The notes below the pieces were generated by a model that worked only from the letters and a program-made list of their open reading frames with translations, did not search any database and was not told the DNA's origin. 64,000 nt of DNA from Xylogone sp. PMI_703 (taxonomy: Eukaryota; Ascomycota; Leotiomycetes). Both the position numbers and the translations under genes were made by a program. The stretch is from contig JAJTUQ010000002.1 of the NCBI GenBank assembly GCA_021399445.1, forward strand, positions 7,750,001-7,814,000, written 5' to 3'. Within the stretch, counting starts at the first letter, position 1. The number at the start of each line of letters is the position of its first letter. This document shows, piece after piece, positions 2,741 through 28,580 of the stretch.

Positions 2741-3214
2741 ATGCAGACTTACGCTTTCTTGCTCCTCGTCAATCTTATCGGTCTATCTCCAGCTGTCCTT
2801 GCAAACCCTCTTGGAAATGTAGGACTTTCCATTGAACACCGTCAACTGGGCTCTTGCGCCACTGCTCCCTGCCCTGTAGGCCTCTGCTGCTCGAAATATG
2901 GCTACTGTGGCACGGGACCAGATTACTGCCAAGCGGGTTCTTGTACCGGTGGTGTTGGGGGGACCTGTCCCGCTGGAACGTGTTGTTCCAAGTATGGATA
3001 CTGTGGAGTAGGGCCAGAATTTTGTTCAGCTTCTCCAACGACTACGACTACCACAGCTAAAACCACAACGACTACAACGACAAAAACTACGACAAGCCCT
3101 ACCCCTGTGAACCAGTGGAACCAATGTGGTGGAAAGGATTGGACCGGTGGGACCGTGTGCAAGTCGCCATTTGTGTGCAAATATCATAGTGAATGGTATT
3201 CACAGTGCGAATGA
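2741..3214 (+). CDS. Small secreted protein with two CBM18 chitin-binding domains and a C-terminal CBM1
   Basis: An intronless 157-residue protein. Residues 1-21 form a signal peptide. Two hevein-like CBM18 modules follow, at about residues 33-64 and 73-98, each with the CCSKYGYCG core and spaced cysteines. A Thr-rich linker spans about 100-122, probably O-glycosylated. Residues about 123-157 form a fungal CBM1 with QWNQCGG and the terminal Cys pattern. No catalytic domain is present, so it should bind chitin and cellulose rather than cut them. CBM18-only proteins in other fungi can shield hyphal chitin from plant chitinases, but pairing with a cellulose-binding module is unusual. The gene sits next to CAZymes and has its own promoter. 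Domain calls are strong; the function is inferred. Confidence 0.88.
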
Positions 3215-22655: not shown

Positions 22656-23153
22656 CTATGGAGCACAGCAGGATGTTGCCGTACCTACAGAATTGAGGCA
22701 CGCTACTAACCCTGGAGAAGCGCTGGAACATATCGCATCTTGCGCTGCCTGTTGCGCAGGGAATCTTCGTGGCGGTGGAGGCGTCAAACAGAGCTGTCCA
22801 CTGACTGTACAAGGGTTGGAGCTTGACAGGCAGACCTGGCCAGCGGGGCAAGGATTGGCAGTTGACAAACACGATTGTCCCGCTGGACAGACAGGCGGAG
22901 GTGGAGGTGGAGGTGGAGGAACTACGTTGCAGTTGGGAACTGTCACAGAACCCCCCAAGCCAGCCCATGGATTCGGAAATAGAGGTCCAAATAGGAACGA
23001 GCCTAATGGCTTGTAAGATATCTGAGCCTGACAGGTTGAAGTAATGGGAGCCGGGACCGGGGCCGGTAAAATGATAGGCGCAATGGGAAAGAACCAGGCA
23101 GTGGCCGTGTTAGCCAAAATGCTGGTGGTAAGTATAATGAAGAATGTTTGCAT
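22656..23153 (-). CDS. Small secreted Cys- and Pro-rich protein, unknown
   Basis: Not assigned to a family. The ATG at 23151-23153 starts signal peptide MQTFFIILTTSILANTATA, giving about 165 residues. The middle has a run of nine prolines, encoded by a GGT/GGA-rich strand at about 22893-22919. It is followed by a repeated Cys motif CPAGQxCLS (VCPAGQSCLS, PCPAGQVCLS, then PCTVSGQLCL). The C-terminus, CSSASPGLVACLNSVGT..SCC, has four more cysteines. It looks like an extracellular or wall-associated protein. No intron is needed. An earlier in-frame ATG at 23192 would spoil the signal peptide, so the internal one is chosen. Function unknown. Confidence 0.68.
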   Translation of the reverse strand: MQTFFIILTTSILANTATAWFFPIAPIILPAPVPAPITSTCQAQISYKPLGSFLFGPLFPNPWAGLGGSVTVPNCNVVPPPPPPPPPVCPAGQSCLSTANPCPAGQVCLSSSNPCTVSGQLCLTPPPPRRFPAQQAAQDAICSSASPGLVACLNSVGTATSCCAP

Positions 23154-24600: not shown

Positions 24601-25782
24601 ATGGTCTACATTAGCTTTAACCGCCGACCTTTCACTCTCCTTCCCGTGATCTCACTTGTTTGGGCAAATAGCAGTTTTGTAGCTGCTCAAGCAGAATACC
24701 CAAACCCTTTTGCTCAGTCACCCATCGCGGTGCCAGCTCCTCAACCTACCGGGAATTCAGAATACCCGAACCCTTTCGGCAGTGATCAGGGTCAGCCTGG
24801 TGCTGTAGATTCTGATCAAGCCTGGGCAGATGGTATCTGTCACAGTGATCCATCGTATGGTTTTGGGTACGTTGCGGCTAGAGACGCGAGCGGTACTTGG
24901 GCTTGCGTTCTTATGCCAGAGCCAAACAGACCGCAACCTTGTTTTGGGGAGCGATATATTGATCCCAAAACTAATCAGCAAAGATGCCGTCCAAAACCCA
25001 TGACTAACTGCCCTGGATCATCCGATACAATTTGTGACGCCGGCAAGTCTTACCAGAAAGTAAACGCATCCGCGCCTACAGGTGCGTGCTGCAGCACAGG
25101 CAGCACATTCGCCTGCTCCTGCAAAGACGGTGGCTCCTATGTTTACGATCCTCTCTCATGCCCTGTGCTTCATCGAAATATTCGAATTACTCCAGCTGGT
25201 CCAAAATTCAACCTTTTCTGCAATATTTCTACCAAGCGCCAGGAAATCAAAGCTGAGCCTGCGGATAGTTTTATCGAATGTGTTGACGCTTGCGGAGCTT
25301 TGGAGGGCTGTGCAGGAGTCGAGTTCAACAAACTCAGCAAGCAATGCTCATTCAAATCCGAATTCCTGACTGAGAATTCAGAAGGCGGCGCCAACAACGA
25401 CGTGGATAGTGCCTCCATGGATCCTCCACCACAATGCCCTGATGCCGAGGGCCAGACATTGACAATTGGGGGAGTCGAATACCAGCTTTACTGCACTCAC
25501 GGATGGAGCCAAGCATTACCTCTAAGTTTTTCCTCAGAGGCAGAAAACATTTACGATTGTAAGTATTCTATGAAACCGCAGCAACACATCTTGGTGAATG
25601 TCTATTAATATTCTCATTCAAAAGGCACTCGGCAGTGTACAGAAAAGGGTTCTTCCTGCCAAGGTGCAAACTACTGGTTTGCTACCAAAAGCTGCGTCAT
25701 GACATCTACTTTCGAGTTCCCCCCAACCGGAAGTAATGCTGGAACTGCTGTTGTCGGTGCCATACCGAAAAAGCAAAAGTAG
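24601..25782 (+). CDS. Secreted YPNPF-repeat protein with two PAN/apple-like domains (member A)
   Basis: A 371-residue protein of two exons; intron 25559-25624 joins IYDC to TRQCTEKG. A signal peptide ends at about FVAAQ. It is followed by two copies of the peptide E-Y-P-N-P-F (24691-24714 and 24757-24780), then a Cys-rich domain (about residues 75-185). Two PAN/apple-like modules follow: FNLFCNIST...ECVDACGALEGCAGVEFN...CSF and YQLYCTHGW...DCTRQCTEKGSSC...KSCVM. These have the Cys spacing of PAN domains, which bind proteins or carbohydrates. It lacks the GLEYA domain of its downstream neighbour but shares the same N-terminal plan, so the two are probably a tandem duplication. Extracellular adhesion or a wall role is inferred. 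Confidence 0.8.
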
Positions 25783-26908
25783 TTAGTACATAACAGGCAT
25801 CTTCAGCCTACAAGATCGAACATGGATATATTTATGCATGTTACGCTTGGTGAATTAAGATTGTAGAAGTTGTAGTCAACACATGCTAGACTGTTTGTGG
25901 TTAGCTTATTAGTTTTTTTTACTGTTTTATAATTTTCTATAGACTCTGTCCATAAGATTAAATCAATTCAGACACTGTCTTCAATATGAATCATCCTTTT
26001 TGCATATTCTGGAAGAACCCAAGGGCCATACCTTGAGACGAGGTTATTACTTGCCGCAATATGTTGATCAACTGAGGTCCACTTCATTCATTGAAGCCTG
26101 GTTTCCTAATCTTTGAATAACCGTTTGTGGCCATTGATACTGTAATTGGAGATACATATAAGCTTGGTTCTAAGAATCTATCGAATAAGTTATTGTACTG
26201 TCCAGCAAGGAATAATATGGATTTTCAAGATTGAATAGTCTACAAAAGCAAAGGAGCTATTATCTGCAGGTTATCCGATGTGGTCAAAGTTACAGTTTCA
26301 CTTTTCTTTTCCCGTTCATATTGACTCGGTCATCTGGGGTCAATCTTTCCGCCTAAGAAGTATCCGTGTAACTATTCATATATTGAATTTGCCACCACCA
26401 TGTGACGTTAGTCAAACCTATAACCATTTCAGCCTACGCACACCGTTGATCTTTAAGTAGCTACGAATAAATTAGGACTAGAATCTCTAGAAAAGTAATT
26501 CTCACCGTGAATCCAGACCGAGGCCAATATTTCCCCGCTAGCTACATGCATGAAAGCTGAGCACAAAGATAATTCGTGCATTAAAAAGTAAAGACCAAAA
26601 AGCATTTTGGTTCCATACTTACTCTGTGAAAGGTCAGCCCCGCGAAGAGCAGTCCCGCGAGAAGCCAAGTCATTCGGACATGTATGACCGATGCAGCGGC
26701 ATCTATCCAGCTGAATATCCTAGATATTCTGAAGGAAACGATCTGCCGGAGGGCTGGAGGAGATATCATGTTTATTTATTGACCACGGCCAGTATGACGG
26801 ATTATGATGATGATACACTTTGGATTAAAAGGATCCTTCTCTACTTATTGATTGTCTTTGCCTGTGACTTCTTTTATCATCGTTGAATCAACTGGAGAAA
26901 CTCTAACA
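25783..26908. other. Intergenic between the two YPNPF genes
   Basis: About 1.1 kb between the tandem pair. Frames at 26278-26460 and 26626-26886 have no family signal. I did not find a leftover GLEYA-coding segment after gene A. Confidence 0.5.
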
Positions 26909-28580
26909 ATGGTTTCCGCTACTAACATTCTCACATATCGCTTCCCCATTATCATTACTTCTCTCCTTACATCGTTCATTTGGGGTGATAATGGTTTTGC
27001 TACTGCTCAAGCAGAGTATCCCAACCCTTTCGCCCCTTCTGCCGGCATAGGAACTTCAATACAACCCGCTGGACCATCAAGTTTCCAGAATCCAGTTGCT
27101 CTAGGAGCAGGTAATCTAACACCTGGTAGTGAAGCGGCATACCCAAACCCGTTTGCTCCAGTTGCTCCTCCTAATCCTACCGATTCTACTTCTCAAGGGA
27201 CTACGGGCTGTCCGCCGTCGGTTGACAATAACATTGCCGTATGCCCAACGAGCCACAACAATGTGTACTTTACAAGTGATGGTACATTCTTCAAGATCCA
27301 ATGTTCCCATCACCGGAAAGCCACAGCCATCCAAATAACAACGGCACAGTCCTTCCAGGAATGTATCGACAAATGTGGCCAGGAGACCGTCTGCAATGGT
27401 ATCAACTATATTCCCACAAATAGTAGATGTACTCTATTATCCACCGGTGCTTCAGCCGACTCTGAAGCGGTTACGGATGAGCATAATGCATATAAAGTTG
27501 ATCCCCCAACACAGCACGCTAAAGACGAAAATTTAGTAGTTTGTTCAACATCCTGTCCCTCAGGTCAGTCTGTCGACGTCGATAGGAGAAAATTGATAGT
27601 TATTGACTTCCAATTTAGCAAATGGCCTAAGCTATTCCTCTATATTCGGAGAAACTTTCAGAATCACCTGCGGCAAACGACATGGAACGGAATATCTCAA
27701 GATAGACAAGCAAGGCACGTTGAAAGATTGTATGGACTCCTGCGCGTCTTATATCCCTTGCCACAGCGTCGACTATCACGAACGGTCTCGAACTTGTTAC
27801 TATTCTAACCATCATGGCGAACCGACCATTGTCACTCCCGGTTTCAGCAGTGCCTATTCTCTAGGCTGCAGTAGTTCGTGCTGTAGCAATAATACATCTG
27901 GCTGCAGAGGATGCAGTGGTTGCAACACATGTTCGCCATGTGTTCCGCCCAAGCCATTAGGACCACCAATGCCAGACCTATCCTGTGGTAATCAGGGCCT
28001 TCAATACGCGATTTACCGCAATACGAAAGCGGACGGTTCTACCAACATATTCACTGGCGCTGACTATCCAACGTTTTTTGCCGAAAAGTTCAAAACCGAT
28101 CCCTTGGAGTTTTCGGGCAAGACGTCAAGTATGGGTTTCAGCTCAAGTACATCTATTTACGGCAACTCTCCTGCAGACTCGGGTTATGTAGCTGTTAATC
28201 ATCGTGCCTACATATTCGCGCAACAAAGCGGTGCTTACACTTTCAGCTTCCCCTACGTCGACAACATCTCCCTCCTCTGGGTAGGCCCAGCAGCCTATTC
28301 GGGATTTACACGAGCAAATGCAAACATTATACAGCCGTTCGTTTCAGCTGGTCAGACACCAGTCACGTATACTGCAACGTTCGAGGAAGGGAAGTATTAC
28401 CCTATGAGGGTACTATGGGCAAACGGAGGTGGACCAGGCGTATTTTCATTTGAGTTGAAGGGGCCTGATGGGAAAGTAATCATAGCAGCTGATAGCACGG
28501 AGCCTTCGCCATTTTTGGTGCAGTACTCTTGTGATGAAACAACTGCGCCGAGGTTTCCACCATTTGGCTCAGAGTCCTGA
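26909..28580 (+). CDS. Secreted YPNPF-PAN-PAN-GLEYA adhesin-like protein (member B)
   Basis: A 538-residue protein. The ATG at 26909 starts a signal peptide ending near FATAQ; the longer open frame from 26852 is not needed. Intron 27564-27618 joins CPS to ANGLSYS. After the signal come two intact YPNPF peptides (27011-27034 and 27134-27157) with a decayed FQNP copy between them. PAN-like module 1 is FFKIQCSHH...ECIDKCGQETVCNGINY; module 2 is FRITCGKRH...DCMDSCASYIPCHSVDY. A short Cys-rich hinge (CSSSCCSN..CRGCSGC) follows. The C-terminal ~210 residues are a GLEYA (PA14-like) lectin/adhesin domain with NQGLQYAIYRN, LLWVGPAAYSGF and YYPMRVLWANGGG. GLEYA domains bind glycans at the fungal surface. 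Cell-surface or matrix adhesion is the likely role. Confidence 0.85.

Follow-up and report, generated by a model that had tools for sequence, protein, structure and literature searches.

What does a five-residue peptide do when two neighbouring fungal genes both repeat it, directly behind a signal-like N-terminus? The question is raised by a 64,000-nucleotide stretch of the genome of the Leotiomycete Xylogone sp. PMI_703 (contig JAJTUQ010000002.1, positions 7,750,001 to 7,814,000; hereafter the window), in which two genes in tandem, here called A and B, encode the peptide YPNPF in front of PAN-like modules. An earlier note, made from the sequence alone, had drawn attention to this pair and suggested that the peptide could be a ligand, a wall-anchoring element or a processing element. 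The analysis described here leads us to regard YPNPF as a multivalent short linear motif on two secreted, wall-associated adhesive proteins, and we would put the probability of this reading at roughly 0.55.

Gene A carries two intact copies on the plus strand, at 24697..24711 (residues 33-37) and 24763..24777 (residues 55-59), and gene B carries two on the same strand, at 27017..27031 (residues 37-41) and 27140..27154 (residues 78-82). All four had been reported previously, at positions that mark two residues ahead of each motif. The longer peptide AEYPNPFA stands at the likely mature start of both proteins, and the next copy follows 22 residues further on in A and 41 in B. Between the copies of B, the sequence FQNPV (27083..27097, plus strand, residues 59-63) contains the only aromatic residue of the spacer and is read as the decayed third copy that had been noticed there. 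Shuffling either N-terminal segment 200000 times never produced two YPNPF copies, and produced at least one copy in 83 and 68 cases. The four intact copies vary at 4 of 5 third-codon positions and at 0 of 10 other positions (p 0.0037, a value inflated by restricting the comparison to intact copies). Since they differ only at synonymous sites, the DNA encoding YPNPF has not been freshly copied. Tandem Repeats Finder (TRF) reported no tandem array over the arms of A or B, its sole row being 27899-27924; together with the synonymous-only differences, this disfavours a recent DNA repeat. At the DNA level the first copies of the two genes match at 82.5% over 40 bp, making common descent of the arm likely.

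The peptide is not confined to this pair. Three protein searches gave 33 different relatives (identified below by numbers beginning with P), and 11 of the 33 have at least two copies of YP[ND]PF, including P0001, which is the public model of gene B. The search with the motif only scored the 7998 candidates with the most words in common and gave four proteins. P0032 (E 0.12) and P0033 (E 0.33) were new among them; their E-values are weak, yet both have the body of an A-type protein, behind 4 and 6 copies respectively. The named carriers are P0003, P0006, P0021 and P0026 from Pseudogymnoascus and P0032 from the lichen Caloplaca ligustica, and carriers are found in both Leotiomycetes and Lecanoromycetes, which are separate classes. 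The earlier note had named the absence of YPNPF next to such modules from every other genome as a refuting outcome. The searches show otherwise: besides the pair, 10 proteins in the database combine YP[ND]PF repeats with a body of the A or B type. For 7 of them PAN_1 is among the listed domains, and P0023, P0026 and P0033 were assigned to the A type from their alignment. The copies precede the Cys-rich part of the protein; the model of P0006 begins at the motif and has no signal, and that of P0029 has a long preceding extension.

Conservation within these arms is concentrated in the motif. Counting genes A and B, there are 34 copies of YP[ND]PF in 12 proteins from both families, with 2-6 copies in each; this table leaves out P0001, P0014 (which has another repeat), P0025 (which has no intact copy) and the other motif-less relatives. 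Y, both P and F are invariant in all 34 copies and the third position is N in 33 and D in one, although the entropies and the conservation at each position are partly circular, the copies having been selected by the motif. The spacers comprise 668 residues in 13 proteins (P0014 is left out of the totals, and segment ends were set by hand) and include only three aromatic residues, all inside what appear to be decayed copies: one in FQNPV of B and two in FTNPF of P0025, which we read in the same way. Among five A sequences, which are related to each other, 10 of 10 columns of the motif, chosen beforehand, are invariant, compared with 11 of 32 spacer columns (Fisher p 2.4e-4). These comparisons suggest that selection probably acts on YPNPF as a short linear motif. 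Arrays seem to grow by duplication, to judge from P0033, where four copies are spaced 21 residues apart with nearly identical spacers. A different repeat is found in P0014, a two-PAN relative of gene B, where ten PAFPQP units occupy the arm in which YPNPF would stand; judging from this protein, aromatic-proline repeats of different kinds seem able to occupy the arm.

The bodies behind these arms were defined from gene models in which introns were picked for GT-AG ends and for agreement with the spliced sequence of relatives. Both genes proposed earlier are real, and the start of A at 24601 and the end of B at 28580 are correct; the models required a second exon in A and an intron in B. Gene A (plus strand) has a first exon at 24601..25558, which encodes the signal-like N-terminus, both YPNPF copies, a Cys-rich module, the first PAN module and the start of the second. 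This is followed by an intron of 66 bp (25559..25624, GTAAGT...AAAAG) and a second exon (25625..25782) with the end of the second module and the stop at 25782, giving a product of 371 residues. The spliced reading agrees with P0021, P0022, P0024 and P0027; three alternative splices (375-379 residues) were dropped, as they retain residues without a counterpart in those four proteins. The first PAN/apple module is encoded by 25156..25416 (about residues 186-272, with the best PAN_1 stretch at 212-254) and the second by 25435..25752 (about residues 279-362, split by the intron). In Pfam, PAN_1 (PF00024) matches A in two stretches with 34.2 bits against a curated cut-off of 21.4. The protein P0021 is 75% identical to A across the entire query. 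The public model of the gene, P0024, begins at residue 134, and the signal and both YPNPF copies are missing from it.

Gene B (plus strand) has exons at 26909..27563, encoding the signal-like N-terminus, the YPNPF copies and the first PAN module, and at 27619..28580, encoding the second PAN module, a Cys-rich neck, the PA14/GLEYA domain and the stop. The single intron of 55 bp between them (27564..27618, GTCAGT...TTTAG) fuses two overlapping open reading frames (ORFs) into a product of 538 residues, and this spliced reading agrees with P0001, P0002 and P0003. PAN_1 matches B in two stretches in Pfam with 34.7 bits against the same cut-off. The GLEYA family (PF10528) matches with 104.5 bits against a curated cut-off of 26.2, and PF07691 is also matched. 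The GLEYA core lies at 28191..28460 (residues 410-499, E 3.7e-30), at the same place in a genome search. As had been claimed, both genes therefore encode secreted-looking proteins with two PAN modules, and GLEYA is found in B only; the signal peptides of both were judged by eye, without a predictor. The C-termini of A (AIPKKQK) and B (FPPFGSES), also inspected by eye and without a predictor, have no hydrophobic glycosylphosphatidylinositol (GPI) tail. The public model of B, P0001, matches the gene without a difference across 75% of its length. It skips 68 bp in the zone 28169..28238 of the plus strand, with possible boundaries at 28169-28236, 28170-28237 or 28171-28238, none of them GT-AG, and this shifts the frame and deletes GLEYA. 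Faulty public models of both genes may be the reason that the pair went unnoticed.

According to the available text of a review of fungal adhesins, the calcium site of GLEYA domains consists of a D-D pair on CBL1 plus an N on CBL2 (PMC8621652). In gene B the site reads D-N on CBL1 and N on CBL2, while D-D is found in its closest relatives, P0002 and P0003. A survey of 18 rows, of which 17 were readable (P0006 was not), gave 10 D-D, 3 D-N, 2 D-G and 2 H-D for the CBL1 pair, with the N of CBL2 present in 16 of the 17. Binding of a sugar by the GLEYA head of B is plausible but unproven.

Within this genome, the combination of motif and modules is found only at this locus. A search of 50.1 Mb for DNA that could encode YPNPF gave 22 matches, compared with 19 for a reversed control. 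Four are those of the pair, one belongs to the GLEYA domain of a further gene, and 17 are in open frames of 9-126 codons that, judged by eye, look like chance. A spread of YPNPF across many secreted proteins of the genome was rejected, with these 17 of 22 matches in frames that are not gene-like. PAN_1 is confined to A and B (three matches in a search of six frames, exon by exon, at E <= 0.01), and YPNPF and PAN_1 co-occur only in the pair. Two GLEYA regions were found, that of B and a second one (L015, at 2456331-2457107 on the minus strand of contig C20), in which YPNPF opens the GLEYA domain (CNNQGVQFAYYPNPFGG) and CBL2 has Gln in place of the Asn found in the 16 other rows read. We treat this YPNPF as a separate coincidence; relatives show, for example, IYPN or YYSNP at the same place at the start of the domain. 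With the only other GLEYA region that was found on another contig, splicing of A to a distant GLEYA exon, which the earlier note had raised, is unlikely.

The AlphaFold model of P0003, a relative of B, has an unstructured arm (pLDDT, the predicted local distance difference test, is 31-44 by block), with PAN and GLEYA blocks mostly at 69-94. The model of gene A is poor (mean pLDDT 45.2), and its list of Foldseek matches has none at E <= 0.001. A PAN fold is present in a model.

In the function that we propose, a signal peptide would be followed by an unstructured arm rich in Pro, Ala, Gly, Ser and Thr, which would present identical YPNPF ‘stickers’ on changeable spacers. Two PAN modules would lie behind the arm in both proteins, and B would add a PA14/GLEYA lectin domain of the calcium-dependent type. 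Several weak YPNPF sites would bring A and B into one extracellular network around hyphae, in which A would serve as a scaffold without a lectin and B would bind sugars. Secretion is suggested by the signals read by eye, and a wall location by likeness to Ss-Sl2, a protein of Sclerotinia sclerotiorum that is compared with A below; the joint network and the lectin activity are likewise inferred. The partner of YPNPF is a more speculative matter, for which our preferred candidate is a PAN module of the same or a neighbouring protein. Proteins with PAN modules have been solved with peptides, judging by titles in the PDB, and for this reason the modules of A and B are considered first. Examples include factor XI (FXI) with a kininogen peptide (5i25) and with P39 (5eok), and AMA1 with RON2L (8g6b); there are further peptide structures of PAN proteins (5eod and 7qox), and the titles are silent on which module binds. 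The apple 2 domain of FXI reportedly binds a DFP motif. It is a good deal less probable that the whole of a more specific scheme holds, in which the stickers would bind PAN modules on adjacent A and B molecules and so build, outside the cell, a hyphal glue with lectin tips; copy number (2-6) would tune it, and it would be conserved between Leotiomycetes and lichen-forming fungi. To our knowledge, little is understood at the protein level of how filamentous fungi bind their hyphae together into sclerotia, fruiting bodies or lichen thalli. The significance of the locus is that one conserved motif links a headless PAN protein with a PAN-lectin, with relatives in two fungal classes, and that YPNPF is small enough for synthesis and direct assay.

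Several observations weigh against this proposal. The repeated motif is absent from 22 of the 33 relatives. Some of these have no natural N-terminus, including both Amylocarpus proteins, while others have an apparent N-terminus and still lack an intact motif: P0005, P0008 and P0014-P0017 among relatives of B, and, among relatives of A, P0025 (in which it is decayed) and P0031 from Monilinia (in which there is none). The motif is thus not needed by every member. In both AlphaFold models the motif residues are near or below a pLDDT of 50 with no confident placement, in a weak test of monomers with 13-15 sequences that covered confidence and secondary structure and not coordinates. Lectin activity of B is unsure given its D-N pair. 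The available text on Ss-Sl2 names GAPDH, Hex1 and EF-1alpha as its partners, none of which is a PAN protein (PMC3338822).

Other explanations of the arm can be set against the multivalent motif. It is possible, though we doubt it, that YPNPF serves as a cross-linking tether, with its Tyr (and Phe) oxidatively coupled or stacked on glucan or chitin and no specific protein partner. Tyrosine/proline repeats are known as cross-linking tethers in plant wall proteins. Restriction of the arm aromatics to intact or decayed copies is consistent with such a role, as is the variable copy number, and without a hydrophobic GPI tail (as judged by eye) A and B need some other anchor. However, a cross-linker should keep only Y and tolerate changes in N and P, whereas all five positions are kept (with the partial circularity already mentioned), and the F-P-Q-P units of P0014 have no Tyr.

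It is less likely that the arm is a low-complexity spacer, which merely lifts the PAN and GLEYA modules off the wall and has no specific partner. Its unstructured spacers, rich in Pro, Ala, Gly, Ser and Thr, would suit that role, and so would the absence of the motif from some relatives. A mere spacer does not account for the fixed motif columns next to variable spacer columns of the same proteins, for the lack of spacer aromatics outside decayed copies, or for a motif common to two families.

A signal for secretion or sorting, either as an N-terminal peptide for a cargo receptor of the endoplasmic reticulum or as a wall-sorting tag, appears improbable. The position of the first copy would fit, at about 2-4 residues past the likely cleavage site in 11 of 12 motif proteins (by eye; P0006 has no signal). 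However, copies are found up to 119 residues downstream in P0033, beyond the reach of a receptor for mature N-termini, and only the A/B pair carries the motif arm within this genome. The bacterial type IX sorting domain opens with a phrase like YPNPF, and such words are common there. A search of NCBIfam with P0003, P0021, P0032 and P0033 gave no sorting-domain family, the matches being one unrelated family below threshold for each of three relatives and none for P0033. Finally, near-identical tandem units with spacers directly past a signal peptide recall precursors that are cut into free peptides, such as Kex2-type repeat proteins or pheromones, but we give this next to no credence, and a role of YPNPF as a processing element is unlikely, because KR or RR occurs in 0 of 14 arms scanned (there is no R in any arm, and at most one K in each) and the remainder of the protein consists of conserved folded domains.

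The history of the pair had been described as duplication of an adhesin in which one copy lost or never had its lectin head. Residues 16-64 of A, which cover the signal and arm, are 43% identical to B, and one PAN stretch is 29% identical. In a tree of PAN modules, those of A cluster together and those of B together (support 94/88, not starred, with a long-branch warning). A tree of simple duplication, with the first module of A next to the first of B, is not rejected by the approximately unbiased test (p-AU 0.115), and the pairing of the first module of A with the second of B gives p-AU 0.114. This tree was the second to be built; P0031 and P0017 were removed after showing long branches in the first, where the first PAN module of P0031 was placed among B rows on a long branch. 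One alignment, A2, leaves out P0001, P0006 and P0018-P0020. GLEYA is listed for none of the 11 A relatives, several of which are partial, nor for P0032 or P0033. These headless relatives span Leotiomycetes and the lichen C. ligustica, so headlessness looks old. The idea that A is a recent headless copy of B is not supported. The two proteins are best seen as sharing a front end and PAN ancestry, with A as an old headless sister family.

Linkage of the two families extends to a second genus with some probability. For Amylocarpus encephaloides, the contig that encodes P0027 (related to A) and the one that encodes P0002 (related to B) both measure 86,696 bases, and the equal size makes a single contig probable. 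Other secreted-looking proteins are encoded near the pair in the window. At 22656-23153 (minus strand), pointing away from gene A, is a Cys/Pro-rich protein of 165 residues that holds GPLFPNPWAGLGG, in which FPNPW (22965-22979) is a near-match to YPNPFA. The corresponding DNA pattern, [FY]PNPW, has 16 matches in the genome compared with 7 for the reversed control, a post hoc comparison that gives a lead only, and no paralogue of this protein was found in the genome. If the glue scheme holds, this FPNPWAG protein may be a third member of it. Further away, a secreted-looking protein at 2741-3214 (plus strand) has two stretches of Chitin_bind_1 and a CBM_1 in Pfam, and a number of ORFs on the left side of the window resemble glycosidases, by eye only.

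How, then, does the pair compare with known systems? In the open-licence literature, no word beginning with YPNPF was found, a search that a motif embedded inside a longer sequence would escape, and one paper mentions both GLEYA and ‘PAN domain’; in the portions available these are listed in different rows of a table and no protein combines them. GLEYA and ‘apple’ are found together in five papers of that literature. The arm is real, probably selected and undescribed in the same literature, and the proteins combine ordinary modules with a new shared arm. The head of B resembles those of GLEYA/PA14 adhesins such as Flo1, Flo5, Epa1 and Cea1, in that it matches PF10528 and PF07691 and keeps the Asn of CBL2. 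The best PDB match of the P0003 model is Cea1A, followed by Flo and Epa heads (Lg-Flo1, Flo5 and Epa; best E 1.5e-10). In contrast to these adhesins, the domain of B is C-terminal, PAN modules and a YPNPF arm replace flocculin repeats, and the calcium pair is D-N. Compared with the available description of Cea1, CBL2 of B reads GGGP and has none of the side chains that reportedly recognise the sugar there. The review cited above, in the text available, defines the Flo-type flocculin family by an N-terminal GLEYA/PA14 domain plus flocculin repeats, and it also states that GLEYA adhesins have no GPI signal (PMC8621652). No flocculin family was found among Pfam matches of B up to E 1 and its GLEYA domain is not N-terminal, so that its layout is not of the Flo type.

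The PAN modules recall the two-apple lectins of coccidia (SML-2 and MIC4) and FXI and prekallikrein, which share the PAN/apple fold: they are matched by a profile of the A family at E 6.8e-4 to 0.017, and also by structure models. Identities in the rows listed are 10-17%. One PDB title describes SML-2 with a galactose analogue. The closest counterpart of gene A in layout, compared by description, is Ss-Sl2, which in the available text is a secreted protein of 352 residues with two PAN modules at 138-225 and 256-336 (PMC3338822). Both have a secretion signal (that of A by eye) and two C-terminal PAN modules, in 371 and 352 residues. A YPNPF array is not reported for Ss-Sl2 in the same text, although the forward primer for its mature form (Table 2) translates to N-P-F-L-K-P, which places NPF at the predicted mature start, and Ss-Sl2 may keep part of the motif (PMC3338822). 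The protein accumulates in walls, its silencing leads to loosely packed hyphae, and it is required for consolidation of hyphae into sclerotia, as far as that text describes (PMC3338822). By this analogy, we infer that A would be a cohesion protein of the Ss-Sl2 sort, with B as its lectin-bearing partner.

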